DNA of 35,602 nt from Methanobacteriota archaeon (GTDB lineage: Archaea > Halobacteriota > Methanosarcinia > Methanosarcinales > Methanosarcinaceae): the NCBI GenBank assembly GCA_016841265.1, contig JAENZL010000039.1, positions 1-35,602 on the forward strand, read 5' to 3'. The notes beneath the pieces were generated by a model that worked only from the letters and a program-made list of their open reading frames with translations, did no database searches and was not told the DNA's origin. Position numbers and translations under genes: made by a program. How positions within the stretch are numbered: the stretch's first letter is position 1; every line of letters begins with the position of its first letter. Below are positions 394 to 32,937 of this stretch, one piece after another.

Positions 394-446
394 TGCGAGG
401 GGTGGGATTTGAACCCACGAAATCCTTCGATACCAGATCTTAAGTC
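394..446 (-). tRNA. 3' part of tRNA-Leu(UAA), displaced attachment site
   Basis: Read on the minus strand this gives an anticodon loop CTTAAGA (438-444, anticodon UAA), the 3' side of the anticodon stem, a long variable arm, a T stem GTGGG/CCCAC with loop TTCAAAT, the acceptor 3' strand CCCTCGC and discriminator A at 394. The 5' side of the anticodon stem should be CCAGA, but the sequence departs from it after two bases (446/447), and no D arm or 5' acceptor strand follows. A tRNA cut at the anticodon loop next to an integrase gene is the classical att site of a tRNA-integrating element. The broken side faces right, which puts the element to the right and the original chromosome to the left. 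Confidence 0.85.
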
Positions 447-460
447 CTGTCTGAATTACA

Positions 461-486
461 ATACAAGACTTTAAATACTCTTGTAT
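461..486 (+). promoter_or_regulatory. Integrase promoter: TATA box inside an inverted repeat
   Basis: The arms ATACAAGA (461-468) and TCTTGTAT (479-486) form a perfect 8-base inverted repeat. The ten bases between them contain the TATA-like TTTAAATA. The TATA box lies about 25-30 bases before the ATG at 500, which predicts a leaderless or near-leaderless transcript. A dimeric repressor bound here would block TBP, so this is a likely operator. The protein that binds is not identified; the two winged-helix proteins at 3010 and 3323 are candidates only by proximity. Confidence 0.6.
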
Positions 487-499
487 CATAACACATCAT

Positions 500-1669
500 A
501 TGAGAAAATTACCGGAGTTTACGGGGTCAAACAAGGAAATTCTCGATCTGTATATGAAGCACATGAAGCTCATAAGTAAAAAGGAGAGGACCATATACGG
601 GGAGATGTGGAACATCAAGCCTTTCGTGGACTATTTCAAGAATAAGCCGTTACCGGAGATAACGCAAGGCGATATGGAAGAGTATATCTTTCACAGGATA
701 GAAACCAAAAGCCCCACTACGGTACACAATAATGTGATAACGCTGAGGTCTTTTTACAAGTGGCTTGATCTTCAGGAAACCAACAATCTGGAAAATGGGG
801 ACGAGTCCATTTGGGAAAAGCTTTTTAAAAACATCAAAACCAAGCAACCCAAAAATAATTTGCCGGTTACGGAGCTTGTTTTACCTGAAGATGTCGGGAA
901 GCTCCGGGAAGCAGCAAACACACAGAGAAACCGGGCGATTATAATGCTCTTTTGGGACTCTGCAGTTAGAAAGGGGGAGTTGCTAAATACAAATATCGGA
1001 GACATCCAGTTTGACAAATACGGAGCTGTTGCTATCGTGGGAGGTAAAACAGGTATGAGAAGGATTAGGCTCATTGATTCTGTCCCCGATCTGCAACTTT
1101 GGCTAAACATGCATCCCCTCAGGGATGAACCAACTGCCCCATTGTTTATAACAGACAGACGTTACGATGGTGAATACAGGCGACTGAATAGCCAGACCAT
1201 TAATAACATGCTCAAGAGTGTGGCACAGAGGGCTGACATAAAGAAAAATATTCACCCACATGTTTTCAGGCATGGAAGATTAACGGATCTTGCCAAGAGG
1301 GGATTCAATGAGATGGAGCTCCGAATTTTTGCTGGATGGGAAAGGAGTAGTAATATGCCTGCGATATACCTGCATCTGTCCGGGGCTGACATTGAAAAGA
1401 AGATTCTTATCAAAAATGGAATAATCGAAGACGACTCCAAAGAAAGGGATGAAAAGCTTAAGCCCATTGAGTGTCCTCGATGCAAGACTAAGAATCCCTA
1501 CGATGCAAAGTATTGCTCAGAGTGTTCCATGATACTTGATCAGGCAACTGCAATCAAGGTGGATGAAGAAAACAAATCAACGAATGAAAAACTCCAGAAC
1601 CTGCTGAATTCAAAAATCGACGAACTAGTGGAAGCAAAACTTGATGATTTACTGCAGAATTTCAAATAA
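500..1669 (+). CDS. Tyrosine recombinase/integrase with C-terminal zinc ribbon
   Basis: A 389-residue site-specific recombinase that would integrate and excise the island at tRNA-Leu. The N-terminal part (about 10-100) is a SAM-like core-binding domain; the catalytic domain follows. Visible catalytic residues are R157 (AVRKGELL), K183 in the beta hairpin (GGKTG), H254-x-x-R257 (HVFRH), W280 in the usual His/Trp position, and the nucleophile Y290 (AIYLHL). A zinc ribbon sits at 325-342 with C325-x2-C328 and C339-x2-C342, followed by a charged helical tail; this tail is common in methanogen integrases. The gene starts 54 bases from the truncated tRNA, as expected for an att-linked integrase. 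All key residues are present, so the enzyme is probably active. The ATG at 500 fits the TATA position and has no obvious Shine-Dalgarno site, consistent with a leaderless message. Confidence 0.93.
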   Translation: MRKLPEFTGSNKEILDLYMKHMKLISKKERTIYGEMWNIKPFVDYFKNKPLPEITQGDMEEYIFHRIETKSPTTVHNNVITLRSFYKWLDLQETNNLENGDESIWEKLFKNIKTKQPKNNLPVTELVLPEDVGKLREAANTQRNRAIIMLFWDSAVRKGELLNTNIGDIQFDKYGAVAIVGGKTGMRRIRLIDSVPDLQLWLNMHPLRDEPTAPLFITDRRYDGEYRRLNSQTINNMLKSVAQRADIKKNIHPHVFRHGRLTDLAKRGFNEMELRIFAGWERSSNMPAIYLHLSGADIEKKILIKNGIIEDDSKERDEKLKPIECPRCKTKNPYDAKYCSECSMILDQATAIKVDEENKSTNEKLQNLLNSKIDELVEAKLDDLLQNFK

Positions 1670-3955: not shown

Positions 3956-4470
3956 TGCCTTTTTGGTGGTGGCTGTTAGTTGTTTTTTATTTCGTTTTCT
4001 CGACTGGTTTGTTTTATTATCAATATTAAAGACATTTCTATAATTGTTATTTCTATATTTTATGACATTTTAGTAAAAAAAGAAACTTTTATCTATTCTT
4101 CTTCCATATGACAATATGAAATATTTTATTTATTATATACATATTTTTTATATGAGTACTGTAAGTAGGGTTTGTAAAAGTGGCGGGATATGAAAGTGAG
4201 GTCGGAAAGGAAATTTGGTTCTATGGAGTTCACGGTTCAATGAGATAAAGAGGTACGGTTTTTCGGGATGAATCTAGATACGATATTTTCAGTGAGCTAT
4301 GGTTTGATTGGTTTTAAAAATGAGAGGATGAGGATTTGGAAATCTGAGTGGTCAGAGAACCGAATCTTCTCTAATTTTTGTAAAACAATTTTATGTTCTG
4401 ATTAGGTACTGAAATTTTATGACTAAACAGTGTTTGTGGTTTTGATCTTCTGAAGTAGGGGTGGTATTTG
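3956..4470 (+). promoter_or_regulatory. Long AT-rich spacer and probable promoter of the giant surface protein
   Basis: No gene is visible in about 515 bases. A strong TATA-like TTATATAC lies near 4133-4140 in a very AT-rich stretch; if it is the promoter, the leader before the ATG at 4471 would be about 300 bases, unusually long. Less striking AT-rich elements nearer the gene (4370-4425) could instead be used. The Shine-Dalgarno-like GGGGTGG at 4458-4464 is about six bases from the start. Confidence 0.35.
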
Positions 4471-7400
4471 ATGAATATAAATAGACAAATAATTTTTTCA
4501 TTTCTATTTGTTGTTTTTGCGGCGATGATTATAGGAGTTTCGACAGCTGAAGACGACAATATGAGTTTCGTGGGTCACATTGGCGGCAGTATAAGCGATG
4601 TTGCCGTGGTCGGAAATTATGCGTATGTTGGAGAAGGCCAAGATTTTGTCGTGTTGGACATTACGGATGTTAATAACCCGATAGAAGTGGGAAAAATAGC
4701 TACGCCAGCATTACTAAACGATATCTCTATATCAGGTGATTATGCCTATATAACGGAAAAGAGTAGTATGGTGATTGTGGATATTTCCAATCCATCATTG
4801 CCAATAAATATAGGCAGCTATAGTTTGACCAACAGTTTAGCTATGAGCGTTACGGTATCAGGGGATTACGCTTATGTAAGCTGTCTTGCGGGTTTTGTAG
4901 TTTTGGATATTTCCAACCCGTCGACACCAACATTAGCAGGGAGGTACACTTACACTACTTATCCTGCAAGTTATACATCTGATATTATCATATTAGGCAA
5001 TTATGCCTATGTACCCTTCGGAAACTATGGTCTTCACATCGTTGATGTCAGTAATCCACCGTCGCCAACACGTATAGCTATATTTAATACGGACGTGTCT
5101 CAGGTCGCAATATCAGGCGATTACGCCTATGCAACCTGTGGTGATAAAGGTCTTGTTATAATTGATATCAGTAATCTTTCATCACCAACGCTTGTGGGGA
5201 GTTACAATCCCTCCGATGCGCGTCCAACCGGCGTTGCAGTATCAGGCAATTATGCATATATAGCCAATGCAAACAGTGGAGACAACGGACTAACTGTCAT
5301 TGATGTCACCAATGTTTCCTCGCCAAAATTGGTTGGGAAGTATGCGACGGGTTATTCAACTTATGTTGCGCTCTCTGGCAATCAAGCCTATGTAGTTAAT
5401 AGTCGGACAGGTCTTGCTATAGTAAACATTGCCGACGTTTCCTCGCCGAAGCTTTTAGCCAGTTATAATTCCATCGGTGAGGCGCGTGATGTTTCAGTAT
5501 CGGGCAATTATGCATACGTACCTGAGTCCGGCGGTCTTTCAGTTATCGACATTAAGGATCCATCTTCGCCAAAATTTGTAGGTGATTATTATAACGGTGG
5601 TACTTCATACACTGTTGCATTATTGGGTAATTATGCCTACTTGGCCAGTGGAAACCGCAGTCTTGTGATTGTCGATATCTCAAATCCATCTTCACCGAAA
5701 TTTGCGAGCAGTTGTGATACAGGTTTTTCATTTTATTCTACTGATATAAACTTAGCAAACAACTATGCCTACATTGCCTATAATGGCGGTCTTGCAATCA
5801 TAGATATCGCGAATCCTTTGTCGCCAAGACTAATGGGTCAGTACAGAAATGCTAATGTTTTTGCGACTGGTGTCGTCGTAGAAGGTAACTATGCTTATGT
5901 AGCCGTTCGCGACAGTGGTCTCATCATTCTTGATATCGCAGACCCCTCCGCGCCTACTCTGGTAGGAAGTTATAGCACTGGGGGCTTAGGTTTAACTGAC
6001 GATATCGCGGTAGCAGGCAATTACGCATATTTAGCTAATGGCGGTCTTTCGGTTGTTGATGTCAGCGATCGTTCAGCGCCATCGTTGATAAGCAAGCTTG
6101 CTGTTACTGCGCAAAGTATTGATGTGTCGGGTAATTATGCATATGTAGGCGGTCTCTTCAATGGTTTTTACGTTATTGACATCACAAATGCATCCTTGCC
6201 GACAATTGTAGCTCACTATGGCACTGCTGGCATACCATATAATTCTTACATAAAAGGCGATTATGTCTATGTGGCTGATGAGAGAAACGGTCTCGTCATT
6301 TTGAAAACAGATATCCAGAATCAGGCGCCAATAGAAGAATCTTTGGTCCAAGTAGAAGGCAGCCCGGATGTATACCTTATCGAAAATGGAGAGAAACGCT
6401 ATTTTACTTCCCCTGAAGCCCTCGAATGGAACGGGTACAGTTTCAGTGATGTAACCTATGTTTCAAGCGAGACATTAACTTCCATCCCGAATGGTGCCGA
6501 CATCAGCATTTCCCAGGCAATAATCGACAAATATTATGCACTTGATGGTTCTGCCACATTCGGACAGCCGGTAGGTACAGGTGAGCTGAATGGTGAAGTG
6601 GATCAAGATGGAATTTACTGTTCCTATGTCAATTTTGAGAAAGGTGCCATTGAATGTTTCGCGAACGGACCTAATGCAGGAAAATCCTATGCGATAGTTG
6701 ATCAATTTTATACAAAATGGGCTTCAATGGGATATGGTGCAAGTGTTCTAGGGTATCCGATAGGTGATATGTCTGAAGAAAAGACATCTAGTAAGAATAC
6801 ACCTTATAAATATCAGCTTTTCACAAATGGAACACAACTTGGTGCGCTTGAATGGAATTTAAACGCCAATCAGATATGTGAGGTTCATGGCGCTATTTTT
6901 GCAAAATGGGCTGAAATAGGATTTGGGTCTAGTGTTTTAGGGCTTTCCACCGGAGATGAGCAGGATATAGCCAGTTCTAAATATGGAACAGTTGGTCGAT
7001 ATGGTACTTTTGAAAATGGGCACATCCACTGGAATCAAGCAACTGGACTATCTTTTGTAACCCACGGCGCTTTGAATGAATGCTACAATAATATTCAAGG
7101 AACTCAAAGTGATTTGGGTTTCCCGATAATGAGTCAGGTAGGAACAACTGATGGACACGATTACTGTGAGTTTGAGAAAGGTTACATTGAATGGAATGCA
7201 AATTCAGGTAAGTATGAACCAAATTACAGCCCCAATATTAATCAAAAAATAAATACTCGCCTTAAAAAGAAACCTCAATTTCCTCCTTATCTTCTTGATC
7301 CAAATTATGTGGGGTCAACTTCTGTACTGTGGATGCAATTTAGTAATTTTGCCTTAAATACTGATTTGACGAAAAAATATGACGAGTTTTATAAAAATGG

Positions 7401-10400
7401 GATATACTACTACAATCTTGAGACTTCCTGCCTTTTCTATGCTAAAAAAAGCTTGAGCAATAATGATATTTCAAGCGCCGAAAAATTTGTTCAAAAAGCA
7501 GATAAGATGCAGAAGTTATCCGATATGAGCTTTTGTGCTGCCAATGATGTTTTTCTAGGGAACATAGATTCTGCTGAGCTTTTTGCCAAATTTATAAAAG
7601 ATGAGTCTGAGACAATTTTGAGTGTTTTGGCAGCATCATCTGGTGCCACAATTCCTAGCACAGCAATAAAAGTATCTCAGGTTTTGACTCCTCTATATAT
7701 AGCAACTGATTATTGGAAAGATATACAGATTGAAGGACTTGATCAGGCAAATAAAAATGCAATGATCGCTATATTTATTCAGGTGACGATCCATAATATT
7801 GATTTCAATGATCTGAATGGGAAAACTGTCGAAGAATTCATAAATGAACCTATTAATAATATCCCATCTGAATTGCTTCGCCAACAATTAAAAGATGCAG
7901 CAAAAGAAACTGGAGTAACTGTTTCAGAAAAGGCTTTAGATTATATGATAAATTCATACCGTGAAATAATGTCACAGAATGTATTTTTATCCTCATATGA
8001 GACAGTAACAGCCAGATGCCCCGTAGAGCTTCAGGTTTACGATTCTAAAGGAGACGTAACAGGGACTGTTAATGGAACAATTAAAGAAGAAATACCCAAT
8101 TCCATCTACGACAATGATACTAAAACTGTTTTAATCTATATGGCAAACGACACCTATAGCTACGAAGTTGTAGGTACATCTAATGGAACTTATGATCTGG
8201 AAATAGTACATAGTGAAAATGCAACAGATAAAAGGACGACAATAGAAAATGTAACTATATCCACTAATTCCAGAGATAGATACACCATTTATTGGCCCCA
8301 TGTAACTACTGATAAGGAGGTCGTGCCCTACATTCCTGTAATTAATTTCAGTAGCAACGTCACCGAAGGTTATGCTCCTCTCTCAGTCCAGTTTACAGAT
8401 CTTTCTGAAAATGCAACATCGAGGAAATGGGACTTTGGAGACGGATATAATTCAACCGAGCAGAGTCCAACGCATACATATCCCTTTGCAGGAATCTATA
8501 CCGTTAACCTGACAATAAGCAATGCAAACGGTACGGCTTCAAAACTTACCACAATAAATGTTTTAGAAAATCATGTAATCCCCCCTCAATCAATCAGTGA
8601 TGTTCAATCTACAATTGGAACAACCTGGATAAACTTCACCTGGACTAACCCCAGCGACTCAGATTTCAACCACACTGAAATCTACCTCAACAACATCTTC
8701 CAGACCAACACCTCTGCCGAATACTTCAACGCCACCGGCCTCGAACCCGAAACAGATTACACCATCGGTACGCGCACGGTGGATATTTACGGGAACGTGA
8801 ATGAGACGTGGGTCAACTTGACTGCCACAACCAAAAAAGCACCGATAATTGTTGAAGCAGGAACTGACCAGACGATGGAGGAAGGAATCAGTGTGGACTT
8901 TGGAGGGAGCTTTACGGCTTCTGGGACACATACCTATTCTTTCCACTGGGACTTTGGCGATGGAGCCAATGAATCCGGTTCTTTGACTCCCTCTCATGTT
9001 TATGAGGACGATGGGATCTATGAAGTTACCTTAACAGTCACCGATGATGAAGGCGATATTGATACTGACACTCTCAATGTCACCGTTACTAACGTCGCTC
9101 CTTCAGTTGATGCTGGAGATGACCAGATTGCTGATGAAGGTTCTTCTGTTATATTCTCAGGCAATTTCATAGATAGGGGTGCCGATGACATACATACTAC
9201 TGATTGGGATTTCGGCGATGGAGCCAATGCTTCCGGTTCACTTGTCCCTGTTCATGCATATGGGGAAAACGGTACATACACAGTAACTTTAACAGTTACT
9301 GACGACGACGGGGGGATTGGAACCGATTTCCTTACGGTCACAGTAAGAAATGTTCCTCCACAGGTGGACGCAGGAGACGATTTTTCAGCTTTTGAGGGCA
9401 ACTCAATTGATTTCTCGGGAAGCTTTACTGATCCGGGAATTTTCGACACACATACAATTCTCTGGGATTTCGGAGATGGTTCGACGGTTACCGGAGACCT
9501 CGTCCCCTCACATACCTATGCAGATGATGGAGTGTATGCTGTGACCCTCGCAGTTAAGGATGATGACGGTGGAGCTTCCGTTGATAGCCTTAATGTTACT
9601 GTAAATAACGCTGTTCCAGAGGTAGAGGCAGGAAACGACTTTTCGGCAGTTGAAGGTGACCCAGTTGATTTCTCGGGAAGCTTTACTGATCTTGGAGTCA
9701 GAGATACACACACTGTAATGTGGGACTTTGGTGACGGATCAACTTATTCAGGGGACCTGAACTTTTCACATACCTATGCCGACGACGGACTGTATACTGT
9801 GACTCTTAATGTTATGGATGACGACGGTGGGATTGGAACTGATATCCTCAACGTTACCGTAATCAATTCCAAGCCACTGGTAGTGGCAGGTCCGGACCTT
9901 GAAGTTACAGCCGGAGATCAGTTCTCCTTTGAAGGCACTTTTACTGATGCTGGGTGGCTGGATACACATACAGCAGAGTGGTCCTTTGGAGAAGGAATCA
10001 CGATAGAAGGTTCACTATCTGAAGAAAATGGGAACCCCGAATCCAAAGGAACGGTTTCCGATGTTTTCACTTACTTTGAGGTCGGTGTACATACTGTAAC
10101 CTTAACTGTCACAGACGATGACGGTGGAATCGAGCTGGATCAGTTCACAGTTACCGTTAACCCGATTGTTGCAACTGTTGACTTCGGACCTGATACCCTG
10201 AACCTGAATAGCAGAGGAAAATGGGTTACTGCATACATCGAACTTCCTGATGGATATGATGTTTCCAAAATTGATGCAGGCAGTGTGGTTCTGAATGATG
10301 AAGTGAAGGCAGTTACAGATCAGGAGTTAGATTTTGTCATCAACGAAGATGAGTACATAACAGATGATGACGAAAATGGAATTCCTGAGAGGATGGTCAA

Positions 10401-14290: not shown

Positions 14291-14508
14291 TATTCTTCTT
14301 TTCTTTTTGGTAGTATCTGGGCCATTTGACGGTACCTCGATAGTTCCTCAAAATTGCATATAAGATATCGAGTCTCCCGGATAGCTGAATTGCCTCTAAT
14401 AAATTGGAAAAAGGCTCACAGTTAGAAAAGTAATAAATAGTAAAGCTTCTAAACTCTAATCATATTTTCATTTTTTTGACAAACTTGAGTCGAGGGGGAT
14501 TATTAAAA

Positions 14509-16743
14509 ATGGGCTTGATAATAATTTCAAATAACATTTCAAATTTGGAGCCTGGGGAAAGAAAGGTTATAAACAAATTAAATTCGGTGTATTCCAATGT
14601 TGACTATGATTGCTACCTATATGTCCAACCAAGATTAAAAAAATTAAATCCAGACTTTATTTTAATTGATGCCTACAAAGGAATTTGCATTATAGAGGTA
14701 AAAGATTGGAGTAGAGGCTATATAAAAGGAATAAATAACTCCTATGTCATCGATATAAAAGATAGACGAGTCAATAATCCAGTCTTCAGAACCAATCAAT
14801 ACTTTAATTTTGCAAAGAGAATTCTACAATCTGAACCTTTTTTTATAGATGAGAGAGGATATTTTAAATTGAACCTTTACTCCAAGGTTATATTTCCCAA
14901 TATAAATTCCAAAGAGCTTGAGAGTTTAAATCCTCATTTGTATCAGCTACCCACAGAGTGCATTGCCTCTGAACAAATCCGAGATATTTCGTTTGATACC
15001 TTATTCTCTACAGATACCCGTTTCCTTGATGAGAATACTATCTCTGCGATCAGGGGGACACTTTTTCCTGAGATAAGAGTTAGACCTGTACAGACGGAAC
15101 TGTGGGAGTTTAACAGGGAAAACCCCTTGGAAAATCGAATTACAAGCACTCTTGATGCAGAACAGGAAAAATTCGCCCGTAAAGTACCTTATGGCCACTA
15201 CATGATAACCGGGGTTCCCGGGAGTGGAAAGACAGTAATTCTCTTATCTAGAGCTATTCACCTGATTAAAGAAAACCCAACATGGAAAATCAGGATTTTA
15301 ACCTACAACAGATCCCTGGCAAGAAAACTGCAGAACAGGTTTGAAAGTCTATACGAAAAGTTGGAATTAATGGGGGTTAACTACCAGAATATTGAGATTT
15401 CAACATTCCACAGCCTTGCAAGTGAAGTTTCAACCATAACACCTCCACCCAAAAAAACCCAGGAATACTGGGATATCCTTCTCCCTTTTAATGCAATTGA
15501 AAATGCAAAACCTAGCTACGACGCGATTTTGATTGATGAATATCAGGATTTTCCGGACGCCTGGATAAAACTGTGCCTCTTGATGTGCAATAAGCATGAG
15601 TATAATGGGCAGGAAACTGAAAATTTGTTCCTGGCAGGCGACAGGTTACAAAGCATCTACAACGATAAGGATAGCAGCTGGAAAAGCCTGGGTGTCAACA
15701 TTGTAGGTAGATCAAAGTTATTGAAAACCTCATATCGATCCGGAAGTACTCATATCAATCTTGCTCTGGACTACCTTATGAAGGATGAAAAACTGAAAAA
15801 AGAGGTAGAAAAATTTTATGAGGGGAGAAACGGGATCTGCTGCAATTATAAAGCTGAGAACAGTGTCGATTTTATCAGTGGAAGCATGGGCAGTGTAAAT
15901 GAGTACCTAAATGATCTTTTTTTAAACCAAAAATACAACCCTGAAGATGTGCTTGTCCTGGTACCTAACAGAAAAGGGCCGAATAATATTAATGAAATAT
16001 ATAAAAAATTGGATTCTCAACTAAAATCGATAAGTGTTGCCTCTACAAAAGTTGAGCCTGATAAGATGACTATTACAACTTATCACTCAGCCAAAGGCTT
16101 GGAATGCAGGGTCTGTATCCTTCTAAACGTTGAGAACTTAAATGACAAAAAACTGCTATACGTCGGAATGACAAGGGCTTCTGAGAAACTGTGTATTCAC
16201 TCATTTTCACCTGGTGGGGGAGAAACTTCCAAAGAACTGTTATCCTGCTATGAGGAGATGACAGCTCCAATTAAAAGTGATATACTGACCTACAGTTTTG
16301 ATTCGGCTATGGAAGAAGAAAAGCCTGTTTCTGTCTATAATATCCGAAAAGAGCATCCAAATGCGTATAAACTATGGGAAAGGGAAGAAGAATTAGAGTT
16401 AATTGATTTATATAATTCAGGGAAGAGTATCGAAGAAATAGCTGAATCTCTTGGAAGAAATAAAGGTGGTATCAAAGCAAGAATCGGGAAATTAGGTATT
16501 ATATCTGATGATCTTGAGTCTACAAAGAAACGTGTCAATGGCGAAAGTAAATATCCGGTGAAAAATGAGCATTTAATTGAACCTAACCTGTGGGGAGAGG
16601 AAAAGAAATCAAGATCTATTGATGTGGGTACTCCAAAAGAGAACGAAGCTCCTGCAAGTCTGCCTGTGATTCAAAAAGGTGGTATCAAATCAGCATTCAG
16701 AAAATTAGGCAAGCTTATCAGTAAAGTTGGATCTGGAAAATAA
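14509..16743 (+). CDS. NERD-domain nuclease fused to UvrD-like helicase
   Basis: 744 residues from the ATG at 14509, preferred over the upstream TTG at 14476 because GGGGGAT precedes it. The N-terminal NERD domain (about 10-120) has the PD-(D/E)xK-like residues D49 (PDFILID) and E63-V-K65 (IIEVKDW), predicting DNA cleavage. The superfamily 1 helicase follows: Walker A GVPGSGKT with K241, Walker B DEYQD at 343-347, a TSYRSGS motif, TTYHSAKGLE and YVGMTRASEKL near the end. A helix-turn-helix of the GcrA/Myb-like kind (about 622-664, SIEEIAESLGRN) closes the known parts. It probably unwinds and cuts DNA in defence or repair. Its stop overlaps the next gene by 17 bases in the +1 frame. Codon use is AT-rich, unlike the operon downstream. 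Confidence 0.88.
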   Translation: MGLIIISNNISNLEPGERKVINKLNSVYSNVDYDCYLYVQPRLKKLNPDFILIDAYKGICIIEVKDWSRGYIKGINNSYVIDIKDRRVNNPVFRTNQYFNFAKRILQSEPFFIDERGYFKLNLYSKVIFPNINSKELESLNPHLYQLPTECIASEQIRDISFDTLFSTDTRFLDENTISAIRGTLFPEIRVRPVQTELWEFNRENPLENRITSTLDAEQEKFARKVPYGHYMITGVPGSGKTVILLSRAIHLIKENPTWKIRILTYNRSLARKLQNRFESLYEKLELMGVNYQNIEISTFHSLASEVSTITPPPKKTQEYWDILLPFNAIENAKPSYDAILIDEYQDFPDAWIKLCLLMCNKHEYNGQETENLFLAGDRLQSIYNDKDSSWKSLGVNIVGRSKLLKTSYRSGSTHINLALDYLMKDEKLKKEVEKFYEGRNGICCNYKAENSVDFISGSMGSVNEYLNDLFLNQKYNPEDVLVLVPNRKGPNNINEIYKKLDSQLKSISVASTKVEPDKMTITTYHSAKGLECRVCILLNVENLNDKKLLYVGMTRASEKLCIHSFSPGGGETSKELLSCYEEMTAPIKSDILTYSFDSAMEEEKPVSVYNIRKEHPNAYKLWEREEELELIDLYNSGKSIEEIAESLGRNKGGIKARIGKLGIISDDLESTKKRVNGESKYPVKNEHLIEPNLWGEEKKSRSIDVGTPKENEAPASLPVIQKGGIKSAFRKLGKLISKVGSGK

Positions 16744-17685: not shown

Positions 17686-20600
17686 ATGAGCAAACTCGAA
17701 GACCTAAAACCCAATGCAGCTGTACGCGGTATTCTTACGGATGGCTTAGTGACTGTCGTGAATGTGGAATGGTATGGTTCGGAAGCCCTTGATTTAACCT
17801 ACAAAACTCCCGACGGCAAGCCAGCAAGTGAACTTCTCTACCGTCATGATGAGGCAAGAGTTGAAGTTGTTGAGCAGGGAAGGCCATGGAGTTTCGATGG
17901 GGATGGTAAACTTTTTCGGCTGGTTTCGGAGGCACACCGTATCCGCCTTGCGCATCTGTTCGATCCGGTTCTGGCCGTCCACACCTCAGTTGTCGAGCCA
18001 CTTCCACACCAGATAACGGCTGTCTACGATGCAATGCTGCCCCGCCAACCGCTTCGTTTCCTGCTGGCCGATGACCCGGGGGCTGGCAAGACAATTATGG
18101 CCGGACTCCTGATGAAGGAGCTAATCGTCCGGGGGGACTTGCAGCGCTGTCTTGTTGTCTGTCCAGGAAGCCTGGCCGAACAGTGGCAAGACGAGCTTTA
18201 CCGACGTTTTAATTTGCCTTTTGAGATCCTCACCAACGATAAGCTGGAAGCCGCTCGGACCGGGAACTGGTTCATGGAGACGGACTTTGTCATCGCAAGG
18301 CTTGATAAACTCTCACGCAACGAGGACGTGCAGGAAAAACTAAAGGCTCCTGACTGCCGCTGGGACCTTGTAGTCTGTGACGAGGCGCACAAGATGTCGG
18401 CCACGTTTTTTGGGGGGGAGATTAAGTACACAAAACGCTACAGGCTCGGGCAGCTCCTCTCTACTCTGACCAGGCATTTTCTCCTGATGACGGCAACCCC
18501 GCATAACGGGAAGGAAGAAGACTTCCAGCTCTTTATGGCTCTTCTGGACGGGGACCGTTTCGAGGGCCGTTTCCGTGATGGGGTCCATGCGGCGGATGTA
18601 TCGGACCTGATGCGGAGGATGGTCAAGGAGAACCTGTTCAAGTTCGACGCAACGCCTCTTTTCCCTGAACGCATTGCTCATACCGTATCTTATAAACTCA
18701 CGGATGCCGAGGCTCAGCTTTACAGAGAAGTTACCAATTATGTGCGGGAGGAGTTTAACCGGGCCGAAGCACTCCAGAACAATAAACGGGCCGGAACAGT
18801 TGGTTTTGCGCTGACCATCCTGCAGCGCCGCCTAGCCTCTTCCCCAGAGGCCATTGCCCAGTCCCTGCGCCGTCGCCGGGAACGCCTGGAAAGCCGCCTC
18901 CGGGAAATGGAACTGCTCCAGCGCGGAGGAATGGTCTCTGTTAATGGCTCTGTTAACGGTTCTGTATATACCGGGATGGTGCTCGATGCAGAAGATGTTG
19001 AAAACCTGGAAGATGCCCCGAACAGCGAAGTCGAAGCCGCCGAGGAAGAAATTTTGGATCAGGCCACGGCGGCCCGCAGCATCCCGGAGTTGAAGGCGGA
19101 AATTGAGACACTAAAACGCCTGGAAACTCTTGCTGGAGTCGTTCGCCACAGTGGAGAAGATAAAAAGTGGCGGGAACTTGCAAGCCTGCTTGAAGAGATT
19201 TTCACCCCGTCAACCATGGTCGGGCAGATGGCCGATGGTCAGGAACCCGATGGGACAAAGCAGGACCCTAAGCCTGTGCCGTCGCCCCACCAGAAGCTGG
19301 TCATTTTCACAGAATACCGGGATACGCTGAGTTATCTGGAGGATCGCATCACTACTTTGCTGGGTCGAAAGGAGGCTGTTGTCACAATCCACGGGAGCAG
19401 GGGCCGTGAGGAACGGCTGAAGGCTCAGGAAGCGTTCAAATACGACCCTGAGGTTAAGATCCTGCTGGCGACGGATGCGGCTGGGGAAGGAATTAACCTG
19501 CAGCGGGCTCACCTGATGGTAAACTATGACCTGCCCTGGAACCCCAACCGCCTTGAGCAGCGTTTCGGGCGTATCCACCGTATAGGCCAGACCGAAGTCT
19601 GCCATCTCTGGAACCTTGTGGCCGAGGAAACCCGGGAAGGGGACGTCTACCGCACTCTCCTGGTGAAGCTTGAGCATGCCCGGCAGGCCCTCGGAGGACA
19701 GGTTTTTGATGTCCTGGGCAAGCTCCATTTCGACGGCAAACCGCTGAGGGAATTGTTGTTGCAGGCGATCCGCTATGGGGAACAGCCTGAGGTGCGGGCA
19801 AAGCTTACGGAGGTTGTGGACAATGCCTTTGATCGGGACCAACTCCAGGCCTTGCTTGAGGAAAAAGCCCTTGCCCGTGACTCAATGGACGCGAGCCGGG
19901 TTCACCGCATCCGGGAGGATATGGAGAGAGCCGAGGCTAGGAGACTCCAGCCGCATTTCATTGAGTCCTTTTTCCTTGAAGCATTCCAGCGCCTGGGAGG
20001 GACCTTGAAGCAGCGGGAGCCGCGCCGTTATGAAATTAAGCATGTGCCGGCCCCGGTCCGGAACCGTGACCGCCTGATAGGTATGGGGGAGCCGGTGCTG
20101 CCGAGGTACGAGAGGATTGCTTTTGAGAAGCCGCTGATAGCGCCTCAGGGGCAGCCACTTGCGGCTTTTGTCTGTCCGGGCCACCCGCTTCTTTCTGCTA
20201 CCATAGACCTTACGCTGGAACGGCACCGGGACCTTTTGCGCAGGGGCACGGTGCTTGTAGACGAACAGGACCAGGGGCTTGAGCCGCGTGTAATTTTCTA
20301 TCTTGAACACGCCGTCCAGGACGCGAGCCGCACACGTTCTGGAGACCGGCGGGTGATTTCCAAACGCATGCTCTATGTTGAACTGGACTCGGAAGGGGGC
20401 ACCCGACACCTGCAATATGCTCCTTACCTTGACTACCGTCCCCTCGGGGCAGGAGAGCCGGGGGTGGAAGAGATTTTTTCCAGATCGGAGTGTGCCTGGA
20501 TCAGTAAAGAGCTTGAACAGAGGGCTCAGGGCCATGCTGTGGCTAACGTCGTACCGGAGCACCTTGCGGAGATCCGTTCGAACAAGTTTGAGCTTATTGA

Positions 20601-21282
20601 CAGGACCGAGGCTGCGGTGAAAGACCGGCTTACGAAGGAGATTATTTACTGGGATCACAGGGCTGAAGAGCTGAAACTTCAGGAACAGGCGGGCAAGGTT
20701 AATGCAAGGCTGAACTCCGGGGAGTCCCGCAAGCGTGCCGATGCCCTGCAGACCCGGCTCCAGAAGCGGATGGAAGAACTGAAACTGGAGAAGCAGATTT
20801 CCGCTCTTCCTCCGGTCGTTATCGGGGGCCTGGTGGTAGTGCCTGCCGGCCTGATTGCCGCAATGACCGGAAAGCTGCTCCCTGAAGTTTCGCACCCGAC
20901 AGATACCCTGGCCTCCGCGGCCAGGGCCCGGGCTGTCGTGATGGAAACGGAGCGCAGGCTCGGGTTTGAACCTACCGACCGCGAGTTTGAAAAGCTCGGT
21001 TATGATATCGAGAGCCGCATCCCGGGCACGGGCAGGCTGCGTTTTATTGAGGTAAAGGGTCGGGTTTCCGGAGCGCAGACCGTAACAGTCACTAAAAATG
21101 AAATTCTCTACTCTCTCAATAAACCGGAGGACTTCATCCTGGCGATTGTTGAGTTCCTGCCGGATGGACTTCACAAAGTCCATTACCTGCGCCGGCCCTT
21201 CCAGCGCGAGCCAGACTTTGGGGTGACGAGCGTAAACTATGGCTTTGCCGAAATGCTGGTAAGGGCAGAGGAACCACGGTAA
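17686..21282 (+). CDS. SNF2-type helicase with C-terminal DUF3883 nuclease-like domain
   Basis: 1198 residues. A short N-terminal beta domain is followed by the SNF2/HepA-type helicase: Walker A ADDPGAGKT with K135, DEAH at 232-235, MTATPHNG, then a coiled insertion (about 380-500) and the C-terminal helicase lobe with GEGINLQRAHLM and RFGRIHRIGQ (626-635). The last part, about 1080-1185, is DUF3883: an ESRIPGTGRLRFIEVKG segment with E1122-x-K1124, then KNEI. DUF3883 resembles PD-(D/E)xK nuclease folds, so it may cut DNA. SNF2 proteins of this group include DrmD of DISARM and the COG0553 helicases paired with DUF1156 and DUF499. It is first in the operon, with GC-rich codons unlike the AT-rich helicase upstream. 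The likely task is translocation along foreign DNA with cleavage by the tail or a partner. Confidence 0.88.
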   Translation: MSKLEDLKPNAAVRGILTDGLVTVVNVEWYGSEALDLTYKTPDGKPASELLYRHDEARVEVVEQGRPWSFDGDGKLFRLVSEAHRIRLAHLFDPVLAVHTSVVEPLPHQITAVYDAMLPRQPLRFLLADDPGAGKTIMAGLLMKELIVRGDLQRCLVVCPGSLAEQWQDELYRRFNLPFEILTNDKLEAARTGNWFMETDFVIARLDKLSRNEDVQEKLKAPDCRWDLVVCDEAHKMSATFFGGEIKYTKRYRLGQLLSTLTRHFLLMTATPHNGKEEDFQLFMALLDGDRFEGRFRDGVHAADVSDLMRRMVKENLFKFDATPLFPERIAHTVSYKLTDAEAQLYREVTNYVREEFNRAEALQNNKRAGTVGFALTILQRRLASSPEAIAQSLRRRRERLESRLREMELLQRGGMVSVNGSVNGSVYTGMVLDAEDVENLEDAPNSEVEAAEEEILDQATAARSIPELKAEIETLKRLETLAGVVRHSGEDKKWRELASLLEEIFTPSTMVGQMADGQEPDGTKQDPKPVPSPHQKLVIFTEYRDTLSYLEDRITTLLGRKEAVVTIHGSRGREERLKAQEAFKYDPEVKILLATDAAGEGINLQRAHLMVNYDLPWNPNRLEQRFGRIHRIGQTEVCHLWNLVAEETREGDVYRTLLVKLEHARQALGGQVFDVLGKLHFDGKPLRELLLQAIRYGEQPEVRAKLTEVVDNAFDRDQLQALLEEKALARDSMDASRVHRIREDMERAEARRLQPHFIESFFLEAFQRLGGTLKQREPRRYEIKHVPAPVRNRDRLIGMGEPVLPRYERIAFEKPLIAPQGQPLAAFVCPGHPLLSATIDLTLERHRDLLRRGTVLVDEQDQGLEPRVIFYLEHAVQDASRTRSGDRRVISKRMLYVELDSEGGTRHLQYAPYLDYRPLGAGEPGVEEIFSRSECAWISKELEQRAQGHAVANVVPEHLAEIRSNKFELIDRTEAAVKDRLTKEIIYWDHRAEELKLQEQAGKVNARLNSGESRKRADALQTRLQKRMEELKLEKQISALPPVVIGGLVVVPAGLIAAMTGKLLPEVSHPTDTLASAARARAVVMETERRLGFEPTDREFEKLGYDIESRIPGTGRLRFIEVKGRVSGAQTVTVTKNEILYSLNKPEDFILAIVEFLPDGLHKVHYLRRPFQREPDFGVTSVNYGFAEMLVRAEEPR

Positions 21283-26193: not shown

Positions 26194-26214
26194 TTTATGG
26201 AGCTATACTAATTC

Positions 26215-29091
26215 ATGACTTACAAGAAAAAACTCATCGAAGTTGCCCTCCCCCTTGAAGCTATCAACAAAGCCTCCGCCCGAGAAAAATCCATCCGCCA
26301 CGGGCACCCCAGCACCCTGCACCTCTGGTGGGCACGCCGCCCCCTTGCAGCAGCCAGAGCCGTGATCTTTGCCCAGATGGTGGACGACCCATCAGCCCAC
26401 CCCGAAAAGTTTCCGACCGAAGAAGCCCAGGAAGAAGAACGCCAGCGGCTCTTCCGGTTAATCGAGGAACTGGTGCTCTGGGAAAACACCACCAACAAAA
26501 TAGTGCTCGGTCAGGCAAGGGAAGAAATCCGTAAAAGCTGGTTTTCCACCTGCGAGGAAAACAAAGCCCACCCGCAGGCAGCAGAACTCTTCAACCCCGA
26601 TAAACTCCCCGCTTTCCACGACCCCTTCGCGGGAGGTGGAGCTCTCCCCCTCGAAGCCCAGCGCCTAGGTCTGGAAAGCTATGCCAGCGACCTGAACCCC
26701 GTGGCCGTCCTCATCAACAAAGCCATGATTGAAATCCCTCCGAAGTTCGCGGGCCGGCCCCCGGTAAACCCTGATTCCAGAAAGCAAAAAGGGATAACTG
26801 CCGGCGGCTGGAAAGGTGCACAGGGACTGGCTGAAGACGTGCGCTATTATGGGAAATGGATGCGCGATGAAGCTGAAAAGAGAATTGGCCACCTCTACCC
26901 AAAAGTAGAAATTACAGAGGAAATGGCTCAGGAAAGGCCTGATCTCAAAAAATATCTCGGGCAGGAGCTTACTGTTATTGCATGGCTCTGGGCTCGTACT
27001 GTGAAGAGTCCAAATCCCGCTTTTGCACATGTGGACGTGCCGCTTGCTTCTACTTTCATGCTTTCAACTAAAAAAGGTAAGGAGGCGTATGTTGAACCTG
27101 CAATTGAGGGGGATAGCTACCGTTTTACCGTGAAGGTTGGTAAACCGGAGGATTTGGAAGAGGTTAAAAACGGAACGAAGGCAGGAAAAAGAAATGGATT
27201 TCGTTGCTTGTTTTCGGATGTACCCCTTCCTTTCGATTATATACGAACAGAAGCTTCTTCTGGAAGAATGTCAGAACGCTTGATGGCAATAGTTGCGGAA
27301 GGTAATCGAGGGCGGATATATCTACCACCTATTCCAGAGATGGAAGCTGTTGCTAAGCAGGCGGAACCAACATGGCTGCCAAACACTGAGACACATGGCA
27401 AGTGCAGAGTGAACATTGGCCTCTATGGAATGACCACCTGGGATAAACTTTTCACCCCCCGCCAGCTCGTAACTCTTACCACCTTCTCCGACCTGGTGCA
27501 GGAAGCGCGTGAAAAAGTGATGCAAGATGCACTCGCCGCCGGAATGAGTGATGATAGTATCGGTCTTAATGATGGTGGGAAAGGTACTCAGGCGTATGCA
27601 GATGCGGTGGCGGTGTATCTGGCATTTGCAATCTCAAAGGTGGCAAATATTGGCTCATCGATTGCATCTTGGATGAGTGACCGTGGAGCCTTCCGTGAGA
27701 CTTTTGCTCGGCAGGCAATCCCGATGGTCTGGGATTTTGCAGAAGCGAATCCCTTTGCTGATGCCGGTGGAAGCCTTGGAACTGCACTTAAAAAGGGTGC
27801 AATGGCCATCGATTCATTCCCAGCTGATATACATGGTCAAGCTTTCCAAGCGGATGCAGCCTCACAGGGCTTATCATCGGCAAAGATTGTATCCACGGAC
27901 CCGCCATACTATGACAATATTGGTTATGCAGATCTGTCTGACTTCTTCTATGTATGGCTGCGACGCTCTATGAAACCAGTCTTCCCCGAATTGTTTGCCA
28001 CATTAGCCGTACCCAAGGCTGAGGAGTTAGTAGCAACACCTTACCGCCATGGAAGTAAGCAGAAGGCAGAGGCTTTCTTCTTAGACGGCATGACCCAAGC
28101 CATGCACAGGCTGACTGAACAGGCGAATCCAGATTTTCCGGTTACTATTTACTACGCTTTCAAGCAATCGGAGACAGAAAAAGAAGGTACTGCCTCCACC
28201 GGATGGGAGACTTTCCTTGAAGCAGTAATCCAAGCAGGCTTTGCTCTTACAGGCACTTGGCCGATACGTACAGAAGGTGCTGGACGTATTATTGCAAAAG
28301 GAAACAATGCCCTTGCCTCAAGTATAGTTCTAGTCTGCCGCCAGCGTGAAGCAAACGCATCCACAGCCACCCGCCGTGAGTTCCTGAACGCCCTCAAGTC
28401 TGAGTTACCAGAAGCACTAGCTCATCTACAGCACAGCAACATCGCCCCCGTAGACCTGGCACAGGCAGCTATTGGCCCCGGAATGGCGATCTACACCCGT
28501 TACGCGAAAGTTCTCGACGCCCAGGGCAACGCACTGACCGTGCGTGAAGCTCTTACACTCATAAACCAGATCCTTGACGAAGTGCTGGCTGAGCAGGAAG
28601 GGGACTTCGATGCAGATAGCCGCTGGGCACTTGCGTGGTTTGAGCAGTTTGGATTTGCTGAAGGCGAATATGGGGTTGCTGAGACACTCTCCAAGGCAAA
28701 GAACACGAGCGTTTCAGGGATGGTGGAAGCAGGAATTTTAACCTCGAAAGGCGGAAAAGTGCGCCTGCTCAAACCCGACGAGCTTCCTGAGGACTGGGAC
28801 CCGGAAAAAGACTCCCGGCTGACAGTCTGGGAGATGGTGCATCACCTTATCCGCGTGCTTGAAGCTGGCGGTGAGGGGGGTGCTGCCGAATTGGTTGCAA
28901 AGCTCGGAAGCAAAGCGGATACTGCCAGGGAACTTGCTTACCTTTTATACACCCTCTGCGAGAGGAAGAAGCGGGCTCAAGAGGCTCTGGCTTACAATGC
29001 GCTGGTGCAGAGCTGGCCTGAAATTATGCGGCTCTCAAGGGAGGAAAAAGCCCTGCCGAAAGGACAAACACGAATTATTGAGGAGGAATAA
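26215..29091 (+). CDS. DUF1156 adenine-N6 DNA methyltransferase
   Basis: 958 residues. The N-terminal DUF1156 domain is recognisable from [20 protein letters not shown] and [16 protein letters not shown]-binding motif I is [14 protein letters not shown] (136-149), and the catalytic DPPY (562-565, [10 protein letters not shown]) marks an amino-methyltransferase acting on adenine. The class belongs to COG1743; NCBI family naming includes anti-phage-associated DUF1156 proteins. It should methylate host DNA to mark self, or act as a sensor. It begins 21 bases after the GHKL gene and is followed four bases later by the DUF499 gene, so the three are probably co-translated. Codon composition alternates between C-rich blocks (26215-26950, 27420-27540, 28360-29091) and AT-richer blocks, unlike a gene of one origin. 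No zinc ribbon is obvious. Confidence 0.92.
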
Positions 29092-29094: not shown

Positions 29095-32000
29095 ATGTCA
29101 ATGAGCAACCACGAACGTGTGGGAAAGGCGCTGGAACTGCTGAAGGACAGCCTCGGGTCGTTCGTCGAGAGGGAAATGGAAAATACCTATCATGAGCAGG
29201 CACGGACAAAGATGGCAGATGTCCTGGGTCAGGACTGGATCTTTGCGGGAAAGCCCATTTCCGACCTTGATACGGCAGGGCTGTTCAAACTCATGTGGGA
29301 TAACTGGAATGAAGTTTTCCGGGTAACCCTGGGTTTTGCGGAGCGCAGTCTGGTAAGTGAACTCCGGGACGTGCGAAATAAGTGGGCGCATCAGCAACCA
29401 TTCTCCAGTGACGACGCCGACCGGGCCCTAGACTCGGTAGAGAGGTTATTGACAGCGATTTCTTCCCCGCAGGCCGACGAAGTTCACAAAATGAAAATGG
29501 AGCTTCGACGCCTGATCTTTGACGAACAGGTGAGAAATGAGAGGCGCAAAGCTTCGAAAACGGTCATCGAAAGTGCATCCAGCAACCTCCTCAAGCCCTG
29601 GAGGGAAATTGTCACTCCGCACGTGGACGTTGCAAGCGGACGCTACCAGCAGGCTGAGTTTGCAGCCGACCTCTGGCAGGTCCACCTTGGACAGGGGACG
29701 GATGAGTACCGGAACCCGGTCGAGTTCTTCAGGCGCACATACCTTACCGAAAGCCTCAGGGGCCTCCTTATAAACGGATTGCAGCGGCTCTCTGGACAGG
29801 GAGGAGATCCCGTGGTGCAGCTCCAGACAAACTTCGGAGGCGGAAAGACCCACTCGATGCTGGCTCTCTACCACCTTTTTTCCGGAAATGCGAGTGGAAG
29901 CGAGCTTCTGGGAATTGAAAGTGTGCTCATGGAGGCTGGAGTTCCCAAGATTCCTAATGCGAAGTGTGTGGTACTCGTGGGCAACAAGATCTCCCCCGGC
30001 AACCCCGTGACCAAACCCGACGGGACAGTCGTGCACACCCTCTGGGGAGAACTTGCCTGGCAGCTTGGAGGAAAAGAAGCATACGAACGTCTGCGTGCGG
30101 ACGACGAGAAAGCGACAAGCCCTGGTGATGTCCTTCGGGAACTTTTCTGTGAATACGGCCCCTGCATCGTTCTTATCGATGAGTGGGTTGCCTATGCCCG
30201 CCAGCTCCATGACCAGAGCGACCTGCCTGCAGGCAGTTTCGAGACCCAGTTCACCTTTGCCCAGGCCCTCACCGAGTCTGCCAAGCTTGCCGGGAACTGT
30301 CTGCTTGTGATCAGCCTGCCGGCCTCAGACACTGCCACCTCTATTCATGCCCAGGCCGATGACGTGGAAGTGGGAGGACAGCGCGGAAGAGAAGCCCTTG
30401 ACAGGCTGAGAAACGTAGTCGGACGTGTGGAGTCTTCCTGGCGGCCTGCAAGTGCGGAAGAAGGGTTCGAGATCGTTCGCAGGCGGCTTTTTGAACCCAT
30501 GACGGACCCGGAGCAGTTCAAGGACAGGGACGTTGTTGCCCGGGCTTTTGCCGACCTTTACCGTTCACAGAGCCAAGAATTTCCCCCGGAGTGCTGGGAC
30601 TCTGATTATGAAAAACGCCTCAAGGCAGCCTATCCGATTCACCCGGAGGTCTTTGACCGGCTCTACACTGACTGGTCCACACTTGTAAAGTTCCAGCGCA
30701 CCAGAGGCGTGCTGCGCCTGATGGCTGCGGTCATCTACAGCCTCTGGGAAAAAGGGGACAAAAACCCGCTCATCCTTCCGGCCAACATTGCCATAGATGA
30801 CCAGCGTGTGCAGTCAGAACTTACCCGCTACCTCTCCGACAACTGGACTCCAATCATCGAAAAAGATGTGGAAGGCCCAAGCTCACTGCCCCTGCGCATT
30901 GATTCGGATGTACCAAACCTTGGCAAGTTCGCCGCCTGCCGCCGGGTAGCCCGCACCATCTATCTGGGCTCTGCCCCCATCCAGACAGCTTCCAATCGCG
31001 GCCTTGAAGACCGGCGTGTGAAACTGGGTTGTGTGATGCCTGGAGAATCTCCTGCCATCTTCGGTGACGCCTTAAGGAGGCTGGCAGCAGCAGCAACCTA
31101 TCTCTACCAGGACGGACCTCGCTACTGGTACTCAACCCAGCCCACTGTAACCAAACTGGCCGAGGATCGCGCCGAGCAGCTCAAACGCGACCCTGACAGA
31201 GTGGTCAAAGAGCTGGACAAACGCCTGCGTGCAGACCTGCGCCATCAGGGAGATTTTAGTCGTGTGCACCCTCTTCCGACTTCCAGTGGCGATGTGCCCG
31301 ACGACCTGGATGCACGTCTGGTGGTGCTGGGAATCGAACAGACTTACAGCAAGGAAGCAGGAAACGCCGCCGAAAAAGCTGCCAGGTTAATTATGGAAAC
31401 CCGCGGAAACAGCCCACGTCTCTACCGCAATACCCTTGTCTTCCTCGCACCTGACAAGATGCGTTTGCAGGACCTCGACGAAGCTGTGCGCAAGTACCTG
31501 GCATGGGAGTCTATCCTCGAAGAAAAAGACACCCTTGACCTTTCACCCCACCAGGTAAAGCAGGCCCAGACGCAAAAAGAGAATGCAAACAGCACCGTGA
31601 CAGCCCGGCTGCCCGAAGCATACCAGTGGCTACTGGTACCCACACAGGAAAAGCCTCAGTCTCCGGTTGAGTGGCAGGCAATTCGCCTTTCAGGCCAGGA
31701 CCCCCTTGCAGTGCGGGCCAGCAAGAAGCTCAAAAACGAGGAATTACTGATAACTGCACTTGCAGGCACTAGGCTGCGCATGGATCTTGAACGCATCCCG
31801 CTCTGGCGTGGGGATAACGTTGCAATCAAGCAGCTCGCAGAAGATTTTGCTTCCTATCTCTACCTTCCCAGACTAATAGAACCTTCAGTGCTCATCGGTG
31901 CGGTTTGTGATGGGCTCAGACTGCTTACGTGGATGGAGGAATCTTTTACTTACGCCGATAGTTTCGACGGAGCTGAGGGACGATACCGGGGACTTCGTTG

Positions 32001-32472
32001 CGGGCAATCTGTAGACCTCTCGAAAGATAACCTTTCAGGTTTACTGGTGAAGCCGGAAGTGGCTGTAAATCAGCAGAAAGCAGAAACACCATCCACTCAG
32101 GCAGTTCCCAAAGAACCCACACAAGTTACGGAAACTGGCTCAACATATGGATCGCCAGGTGGAGGTGTGACTACGGGAACTGGAACGGACGTTGGAACTG
32201 GAACCGGAACCACAACCAGACCACCAGCAGAACAACCTCCCAGACGTTTCCACGGCAGTGTGACCCTTGACTCTACCCGTGTGGGCCGTGACGCAGGGAA
32301 AATCGCTGATGAAGTAATCTCGCACCTTGCCGGGCTGGTGGGCTCAACGGTGACAGTGACACTGGAAATTGAAGCAGATATTCCATCTGGAGTCCCGGAC
32401 AACGTTGTAAGGATCGTTACCGAAAACGGTAGAACACTGAAATTTACGAACCAGGGATTTGAGAAGGAATAA
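29095..32472 (+). CDS. DUF499 AAA-type ATPase with N-terminal Swt1-like HEPN domain
   Basis: 1125 residues. Residues 1-130 look like a Swt1-type HEPN domain with R94-N-K-W-A-H99, an R-x4-H motif that in active HEPN proteins cuts RNA. The DUF499 ATPase follows with Walker A FGGGKTHS (K251) and Walker B LIDEW (D362-E363). A Thr/Gly-rich linker (about 1013-1045) precedes a C-terminal domain of about 75 residues (DEVISHLAGLVGSTVTVTLE) seen at the end of several defence ATPases. DUF499 (COG1483) is a known partner of DUF1156. Within a defence system the HEPN domain is the best candidate for a suicide or RNA-cutting effector, the ATPase for a sensor. The ATG at 29095 is preceded by AGGAGG (29081-29086), the best ribosome site in the window, which sits within the end of the DUF1156 gene. 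Confidence 0.9.
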   Translation: MSMSNHERVGKALELLKDSLGSFVEREMENTYHEQARTKMADVLGQDWIFAGKPISDLDTAGLFKLMWDNWNEVFRVTLGFAERSLVSELRDVRNKWAHQQPFSSDDADRALDSVERLLTAISSPQADEVHKMKMELRRLIFDEQVRNERRKASKTVIESASSNLLKPWREIVTPHVDVASGRYQQAEFAADLWQVHLGQGTDEYRNPVEFFRRTYLTESLRGLLINGLQRLSGQGGDPVVQLQTNFGGGKTHSMLALYHLFSGNASGSELLGIESVLMEAGVPKIPNAKCVVLVGNKISPGNPVTKPDGTVVHTLWGELAWQLGGKEAYERLRADDEKATSPGDVLRELFCEYGPCIVLIDEWVAYARQLHDQSDLPAGSFETQFTFAQALTESAKLAGNCLLVISLPASDTATSIHAQADDVEVGGQRGREALDRLRNVVGRVESSWRPASAEEGFEIVRRRLFEPMTDPEQFKDRDVVARAFADLYRSQSQEFPPECWDSDYEKRLKAAYPIHPEVFDRLYTDWSTLVKFQRTRGVLRLMAAVIYSLWEKGDKNPLILPANIAIDDQRVQSELTRYLSDNWTPIIEKDVEGPSSLPLRIDSDVPNLGKFAACRRVARTIYLGSAPIQTASNRGLEDRRVKLGCVMPGESPAIFGDALRRLAAAATYLYQDGPRYWYSTQPTVTKLAEDRAEQLKRDPDRVVKELDKRLRADLRHQGDFSRVHPLPTSSGDVPDDLDARLVVLGIEQTYSKEAGNAAEKAARLIMETRGNSPRLYRNTLVFLAPDKMRLQDLDEAVRKYLAWESILEEKDTLDLSPHQVKQAQTQKENANSTVTARLPEAYQWLLVPTQEKPQSPVEWQAIRLSGQDPLAVRASKKLKNEELLITALAGTRLRMDLERIPLWRGDNVAIKQLAEDFASYLYLPRLIEPSVLIGAVCDGLRLLTWMEESFTYADSFDGAEGRYRGLRCGQSVDLSKDNLSGLLVKPEVAVNQQKAETPSTQAVPKEPTQVTETGSTYGSPGGGVTTGTGTDVGTGTGTTTRPPAEQPPRRFHGSVTLDSTRVGRDAGKIADEVISHLAGLVGSTVTVTLEIEADIPSGVPDNVVRIVTENGRTLKFTNQGFEKE

Positions 32473-32553: not shown

Positions 32554-32937
32554 TTAAGGTTTAGGCTCAAAAGATTTACAAATGGATCTTGGAACAACTT
32601 TTTTCCCCTTAAGGGTACATTCCGGCCTTAAGTAATAAGAACATGTAAGGCAACAGTAGTCTTTTTTTTCGAGGTGATCGCTAATTCTCCGCAGTTCGAG
32701 AGAGTATAACCCTTTTCCCCGATTATATTTGAAGAGATTATAAGGAATATTTTTGATTTTACAGTACAGGGTGGAGGGAGATGGAGGATTCCAATCTTCA
32801 TACTCCGATTCCGCCACTAAATTTGCTTTATTGGAAGAGGATTTGGAAGGTAAATCGGGATAAAGCATTTTATGGCATTCTGGACAAAATATATATTTAT
32901 TCTTATATTTTTTATTGCAACTTTTGCATATTTTCAT
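32554..32937 (-). CDS. Cys-rich zinc-ribbon protein
   Basis: 127 residues. The N-terminus is a zinc ribbon with C4-x2-C7 and C18-x2-C21 (KICKSCNKKYKNKYIFCPEC). The C-terminal third has another cluster (DYCCLTCSYYLRPEC, then C in SICKSFEP) with the spacing of a second metal site. No membrane segment or known enzyme motif. It may be an RNA- or DNA-binding accessory protein. It converges on the DUF499 gene with an 81-base gap. A TATA box at 32963-32974 suits a leaderless message from the ATG at 32935-32937. I do not recognise a specific family. Confidence 0.75.
   Translation of the reverse strand: MKICKSCNKKYKNKYIFCPECHKMLYPDLPSKSSSNKANLVAESEYEDWNPPSPSTLYCKIKNIPYNLFKYNRGKGLYSLELRRISDHLEKKDYCCLTCSYYLRPECTLKGKKVVPRSICKSFEPKP

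Follow-up and report, generated by a model that had tools for sequence, protein, structure and literature searches.

A truncated tRNA-Leu gene lies beside an intact integrase

The window analysed here is an entire contig (C37, 35,602 bp) of a 67-contig draft genome of the Methanosarcinaceae. Near its left end lie a truncated tRNA-Leu(UAA) gene and a tyrosine integrase gene, which together form one end of an integrated island. The sequence at 394-444 of the reverse strand (CTTAAGATCTGGTATCGAAGGATTTCGTGGGTTCAAATCCCACCCCTCGCA) is a tRNA-Leu(UAA) 3' half, running from the first anticodon-loop base to the discriminator base; ARAGORN found no complete tRNA in the window. The top matches of this fragment elsewhere are complete tRNA-Leu(UAA) genes, with 97% identity in three congeners (E 1e-21 to 3e-24), and it is 90% identical to the complete tRNA-Leu(UAA) of its own genome (E 2e-17). 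Given such matches, the fragment is not a chance resemblance. The integrase start codon is at 500, 55 bases from the fragment on its broken side. The 389-amino-acid (aa) product matches Phage_integrase (2.8e-18) and Phage_int_SAM_4, and its named relatives come mostly from Methanosarcina, Methanococcoides and Methanomicrobiales, which points to a methanogenic archaeon as host. Its frame is intact beside the attachment (att) site, as in integrases of the non-suicidal type. The initial annotation had described a truncated tRNA-Leu(UAA) gene, broken at the anticodon loop, beside an integrase (500-1669), and this is confirmed.

On the other side, the C-terminal remnant of an IS66-type transposase (positions 1-369) directly adjoins the tRNA fragment. 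Bases 1-55 are a multi-copy repeat that also terminates contig C65, which indicates that the contig breaks at this repeat. We rejected C65 as a joined neighbour, since the match is an assembly repeat border.

Fragment and complete tRNA bound islands in related genomes

In nearly every close homologue examined, a tRNA-Leu 3' half lies antisense just upstream of an integrase 43-69% identical to that of the window; one integrase homologue (G073:C7) lacks it. These 3' halves begin at the anticodon loop. The anticodon is UAA in the window, G083, G085, UBA5 and G033, CAG in G089, G095 and G073:C8, and UAG in G045, G050, G064, G066, G074, G079, G040 and G043. For CAA, the fragment alone was seen, in G075, where it is read from the anticodon loop CTCAAGA. 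The isoacceptor of the fragment thus varies among homologues, which indicates that target choice moves among leucine tRNAs.

Thirteen loci had enough contig for the far end to be sought. All 13 have, on the integrase side and on the strand of the fragment, a complete tRNA-Leu whose isoacceptor (UAA, UAG or CAG) matches that of the fragment, at a distance of 14.5-45.5 kb. By a generous estimate, chance would place a tRNA in this way at about 1% per locus. The fragment and the integrase co-occur across several genera, with matching far ends. The claim that the fragment is one end of an island extending to the right is thus borne out by the side and strand of the tRNA in every testable relative. 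We conclude that in these islands the fragment marks one end and a complete tRNA of matching isoacceptor, in the right orientation, the other; in the genome of the window, fragment and complete tRNA stand on two contigs.

The host gene is left in two halves

The assembly yielded a single complete tRNA-Leu(UAA), at 43779-43866 of contig C25. This contig is syntenic with the unbroken locus of the congener G003 up to position 43677, inside the tRNA gene (42763-43677 at 96% identity). There it leaves an orphan 5' half (43637-43677), whose last bases are CTTAAGA, and the complete gene, hereafter the replacement, begins 101 bp after it. When the 5' half on C25 was joined to the window fragment, ARAGORN called a tRNA-Leu(UAA); each half alone was uncalled. 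Compared with this joined gene, the tRNA-Leu(UAA) of the congener G002 agrees at 85/85 bases, that of G003 at 79/85 and the replacement on C25 at 77/85. The two broken ends share only a core of about 9 bp (GACTTAAGA). G003 shares the first bases beyond the window fragment (TTTTTTTAAA), and its native downstream flank is matched in G083 over about 100 bp past the fragment. We infer that C25 and the window are probably the two ends of one island.

An intact tRNA-Leu(UAA) had been predicted at the other end of the island. One is indeed present, off the contig; it is a separate, divergent island gene and not the regenerated target. Nor does it share the expected att sequence of 51-53 bases, the partner of the fragment being the orphan 5' half. 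The lack of a second copy of that sequence had been named in advance as evidence against an island; for a 51-base att it is technically the case, yet the island is real.

Past the replacement, C25 encodes an IS1-type transposase, a 65-aa open reading frame (ORF), an MCM helicase and a second transposase. The 65-aa ORF and the MCM helicase have homologues in related islands. They lie at the replacement-tRNA end here (L015 14864-17262, equal to C25 45863-48261) and at the integrase end in G083; this module seems to have changed ends.

Unbroken sites in close relatives provide a direct comparison. Four genomes of genus g3 (G024, G035, G011 and G057) have the locus unbroken. The upstream region and tRNA 5' half of G024 align to 483002-487877 of the filled locus in G064, and its 3' half and downstream region align to pieces between 514607 and 517834. 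With both flanks aligned, G064 has a 26.7 kb foreign insert relative to G024. Within the insert, 94 bp past the orphan 5' half, lies a complete tRNA-Leu(UAG) (487972-488057), and the broken ends have only about 12-13 bases in common (GGGCTTAGGACC); across islands, the core is 9-13 bases long. An unoccupied site in a close relative is therefore available for both G064 (in G024) and C25 with the window (in G003). G003 is the only congener used as unbroken because G001 and G002 look like scars: both were rejected as empty sites, as they carry a 5' half before the complete tRNA. A search for an empty site in g8 with the flank of G089 gave matches dominated by multi-copy sequence.

A 5' half ending at the anticodon, followed by a complete tRNA 78-146 bp later (start to start), was found in 10 of the 13 islands. 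As a control, a 5' half lies at most 500 bp upstream of 1/37 native-type tRNA-Leu(UAG) genes vs 10/16 replacement-type genes (p 4e-6). No 5' half precedes five of these 16, all from one genus, which may go back to old events. The target thus appears not to be regenerated by an att-borne fragment; the host 5' half is instead orphaned beside a separate complete tRNA.

The replacement is recoded in the anticodon stem

At 11 loci, the anticodon stem is fully paired when the 5' and 3' halves are combined (55/55) and within the replacement (55/55), whereas a native half mixed with the replacement pairs at 37/55. The orphan halves therefore once formed a single gene, distinct from the replacement. 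At nine loci, native and replacement genes differ at 34/90 anticodon-stem positions vs 37/612 other positions, and at none of the loop bases (odds ratio for the stem 9.4, p 7e-15, the loci not all being independent). The 5' part of the complete tRNA likewise differs from the native one. The native tRNA-Leu(UAG) genes surveyed have the stem CAGGG/CCCTG, and the replacements of UAG islands all have ATGGG/CCCAT. The stem flanking the 7-base loop is the expected place of tyrosine integrase binding and cutting (PMC8371274), so the recoded stem may protect the replacement from the island's own integrase. Such recoding would prevent re-targeting.

A split-and-replace mode of integration and its alternatives

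Very probably, the island splits a host tRNA-Leu gene and brings a complete replacement of the same isoacceptor instead of repairing it. The integrase would recombine a short core in the anticodon stem-loop of the host gene. Integration would cut that gene, leaving the 5' half at one island end (C25 43637-43677) and the 3' half at the other (394-444). The island would bring no 3' half for repairing the host gene; a complete, separately evolved tRNA-Leu of the same isoacceptor, just inside the far end and recoded mainly in the anticodon stem, would take over decoding. Precise excision would restore the native gene. The split halves, the complete replacement, the unbroken sites of relatives, the isoacceptor match, the stem recoding and the defence cargo are all seen in the sequences and support this proposal.

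In contrast, in textbook integration attP carries the tRNA 3' half, so that an intact tRNA is regenerated at one end and a 51-base copy is left at the other. This is the general rule in the literature, the fragment and the complete tRNA do stand at opposite island ends, and three of the 13 islands (G083, G095 and G074), in which we did not find a detached 5' half, stay compatible with it and weigh against a split target. We nevertheless consider it very unlikely here. An orphan 5' half stands beside the complete tRNA in the genome of the window and in 10/13 relatives, the complete tRNA differs from the native one in its 5' part too, mixed halves pair poorly, and the comparison of filled G064 with empty G024 contradicts it. 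Compensatory mutations after textbook integration were dropped as an explanation once the detached 5' halves were found. It is less likely still, to the point of being hardly credible, that the cell transcribes the halves separately and trans-splices them into a working split tRNA, as Nanoarchaeum does. In favour of this stand the good conservation of both halves, their fully complementary stem and some inverted similarity, judged by eye, between the sequences beside them; but a complete tRNA of that isoacceptor is located about 100 bp away, integrase sites are expected to have inverted arm sequences, and upstream of the 3' half there is only the integrase end.

Several observations weigh against joining C25 and the window into one island. 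They are separate contigs whose ends overlap by no more than 12 bases and which share no 20-mers; the IS66-type remnant masks the chromosomal side of the window fragment; and the native downstream flank, sought in the same genome with DNA of G001, gave only scattered short matches. In G083, the counterparts of the 65-aa ORF and MCM genes beside the replacement are found near the integrase end, and C25 could therefore hold a different island. Two different islands may then be stacked in one tRNA gene, each having split and replaced it, with the replacement of the window elsewhere. Stacking is suggested elsewhere: beyond the fragment, G085 has a second complete tRNA and G079 a decayed native-like tRNA. 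Against this, the assembly holds one complete tRNA-Leu(UAA) and one matching pair of 5' and 3' halves, which rejoin perfectly, and we regard stacking at this locus as unlikely, if a serious alternative. That the integrase is decayed or unrelated and the fragment a chance remnant of an old event would fit the insertion sequence at the flank and the cut-off contig; it is extremely improbable, as the integrase frame is intact and several genera have the fragment paired with the integrase and a matching far end.

Under split-and-replace integration, the replacement would be expressed and essential, and the host probably depends on the island for this tRNA-Leu. Losing the island is probably difficult, as the only tRNA-Leu(UAA) would go with it if the loss were imprecise. 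A more tentative idea, to which we give somewhat less than even chances, is that the carried tRNA acts as a combined addiction and self-immunity module. Imprecise island loss would be lethal because the host gene is broken and the island tRNA-Leu is the sole one of its isoacceptor, and the working tRNA would no longer be cut by the island's own integrase family because its anticodon stem is recoded with compensating changes.

Defence genes in at least seven islands

The features of the window are listed in Table 1. HmaA helicase, HmaB methylase and HmaC ATPase occur together within 17686-32472, in the same order as in the Hma defence system of PADLOC, which would protect against viruses. In G089, a single-contig genome, a 17.9 kb island holds HmaA/B/C between a tRNA-Leu(CAG) fragment and a replacement tRNA-Leu(CAG). 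Enclosure of the same three genes by an island with the same kind of ends supports the Hma operon of the window as island cargo, as the initial annotation had supposed for its defence operon. The two operons differ in the sacsin-type gene, which is absent in G089.

Table 1. Annotated features of the window (C37), with positions, strand and remarks.
Feature	Position	Strand	Remark
Native 3' half of host tRNA-Leu(UAA), attR side	394..444	-	with C25 43637-43677 forms complete tRNA
Shared core GACTTAAGA	438..446	-	anticodon loop and two stem bases, at both broken ends
Island end (P arm), core to integrase start	447..499	.	TTGTATTGTA resembles TAGTATCGTAT-type sequence of related islands there
Tyrosine integrase	500..1669	+	intact frame, non-suicidal type
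NERD and UvrD-type helicase	14476..16743	+	defence-like cargo
HmaA helicase	17686..21282	+	full-length profile match; 82% identity to gene in G089 island
Sacsin-type ATPase, 1507 aa	21670..26193	+	TmtA-like N-terminus; within Hma operon between HmaA and HmaB
HmaB adenine methylase	26215..29091	+	full-length profile match; 75% identity to G089
HmaC ATPase	29095..32472	+	N-terminal Swt1-like HEPN domain; full-length profile match; 82% identity to G089
127-aa ORF	32554..32937	-	69% homologue follows HmaC near tRNA end of G089 island

A scan of the larger ORFs found restriction, CRISPR, DISARM-like, Druantia-like or Hma-type genes in at least 7 of the 13 islands. DISARM-like and Druantia-E-like genes lie in the G083 island, type I restriction-modification genes in G064 and G040, type III in G043, HmaA/HmaB-like genes in G079, and the CRISPR-Cas I-B genes Cas8b and Cas3 in G045. 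G066 and G074 have at least part of the G045 Cas region in common, judging from DNA alignment and ORF sizes.

Three other genes of the window are of note. The ORF at 11082-11711 (reverse strand) encodes a second, shorter integrase-like protein (209 aa, catalytic part only) with homologues in the G083 and G045 islands (48-49% identity), and may mark a composite island. The cargo also includes a 2036-aa protein with LVIVD and PKD repeats (4468-10578, forward strand), likely a surface protein. At the contig end lies a HEAT-repeat gene (33768-35513, reverse strand), whose repeats probably broke the assembly; similar HEAT genes stand downstream of tRNA-Leu in G001. A search for a circular or viral form of the element found no relative in viral contigs, and the plasmid matches listed were only distant (about 30% or less).

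Scars and stacked islands

In G001, a 5' half is followed by about 100 bp of island-like sequence and then by a tRNA with a replacement-like 5' half and a native 3' half. The stem of this tRNA has an A-C mismatch, and the flank after it is homologous to that of G003. G002 is similar, without the stem mismatch. Both appear to be traces of lost islands, in which a deletion has fused the replacement tRNA to the native 3' half.

Further leucine tRNA genes were seen around related loci. In L287 (G047:C13 191136-194418), a replacement-type tRNA-Leu(UAG) is preceded by a 5' half, and a complete native-type tRNA with a damaged D arm lies 2.1 kb past it. L242 (G079:C1 246254-246332) is a decayed native tRNA-Leu(UAG) that lacks bases around the anticodon, 3.5 kb beyond the island fragment; it may be the excision scar of a stacked island. 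Complete tRNA-Leu genes (two UAA, two CAG and one CAA) lie in and around one island in G085 (L139 and L141, G085:C21 15094-51953), which suggests stacked islands, each with a tRNA.

Relation to known systems and significance

The element works like a tRNA-targeting integrative island, yet fails the defining repair feature. For Islander (Hudson, Lau and Williams, PMC4383910), the defining mark of such islands is an attP fragment by which the target is restored. Those with an anticodon-centred subsite share with the present family a terminal tyrosine integrase, a displaced tRNA fragment beside it, a crossover in the anticodon loop and a complete tRNA at the far end; they restore the target from the att-borne fragment, whereas here the target remains split and the island brings an entire replacement gene. 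Among archaeal integrases, the non-suicidal types (pNOB8, PYG1, SNJ2-type, 'classical') likewise have an intact integrase gene beside att and a tRNA target. A 2021 review of archaeal recombinases (PMC8371274) states that the tRNA is restored from the att site and is uninterrupted after every integration event; this is not so in the present family. In suicidal (SSV-type) integrases, att lies inside the gene, which is split on integration; the 389-aa frame is intact beside att. The nearest precedent found is the tRNA-Thr of Caldiarchaeum (Sugahara et al. 2012, PMC3293823): a mobile element displaced its 5' part, which is left as a fragment beside mobile DNA with a recombinase gene. In the part of that account drawn on here, the 3' part gains a new 5' part, and a complete replacement tRNA is not described. 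Our full-text literature search, of incomplete coverage, found no description of an element carrying a complete replacement tRNA. In tycheposons, one of the borders has a tRNA.

The present family breaks its target and replaces the whole gene, whereas island finders and textbook models take target repair for granted. Split-and-replace integration spans the UAA, UAG and CAG leucine isoacceptors and several methanogen genera, and explains tRNA fragments that are open to misreading by annotation programs. Filled and unbroken loci offer natural before/after pairs for probing how integrases recognize the anticodon loop. Here a mobile element has replaced a host tRNA gene horizontally, which suggests a route by which a defence-carrying island could become indispensable.
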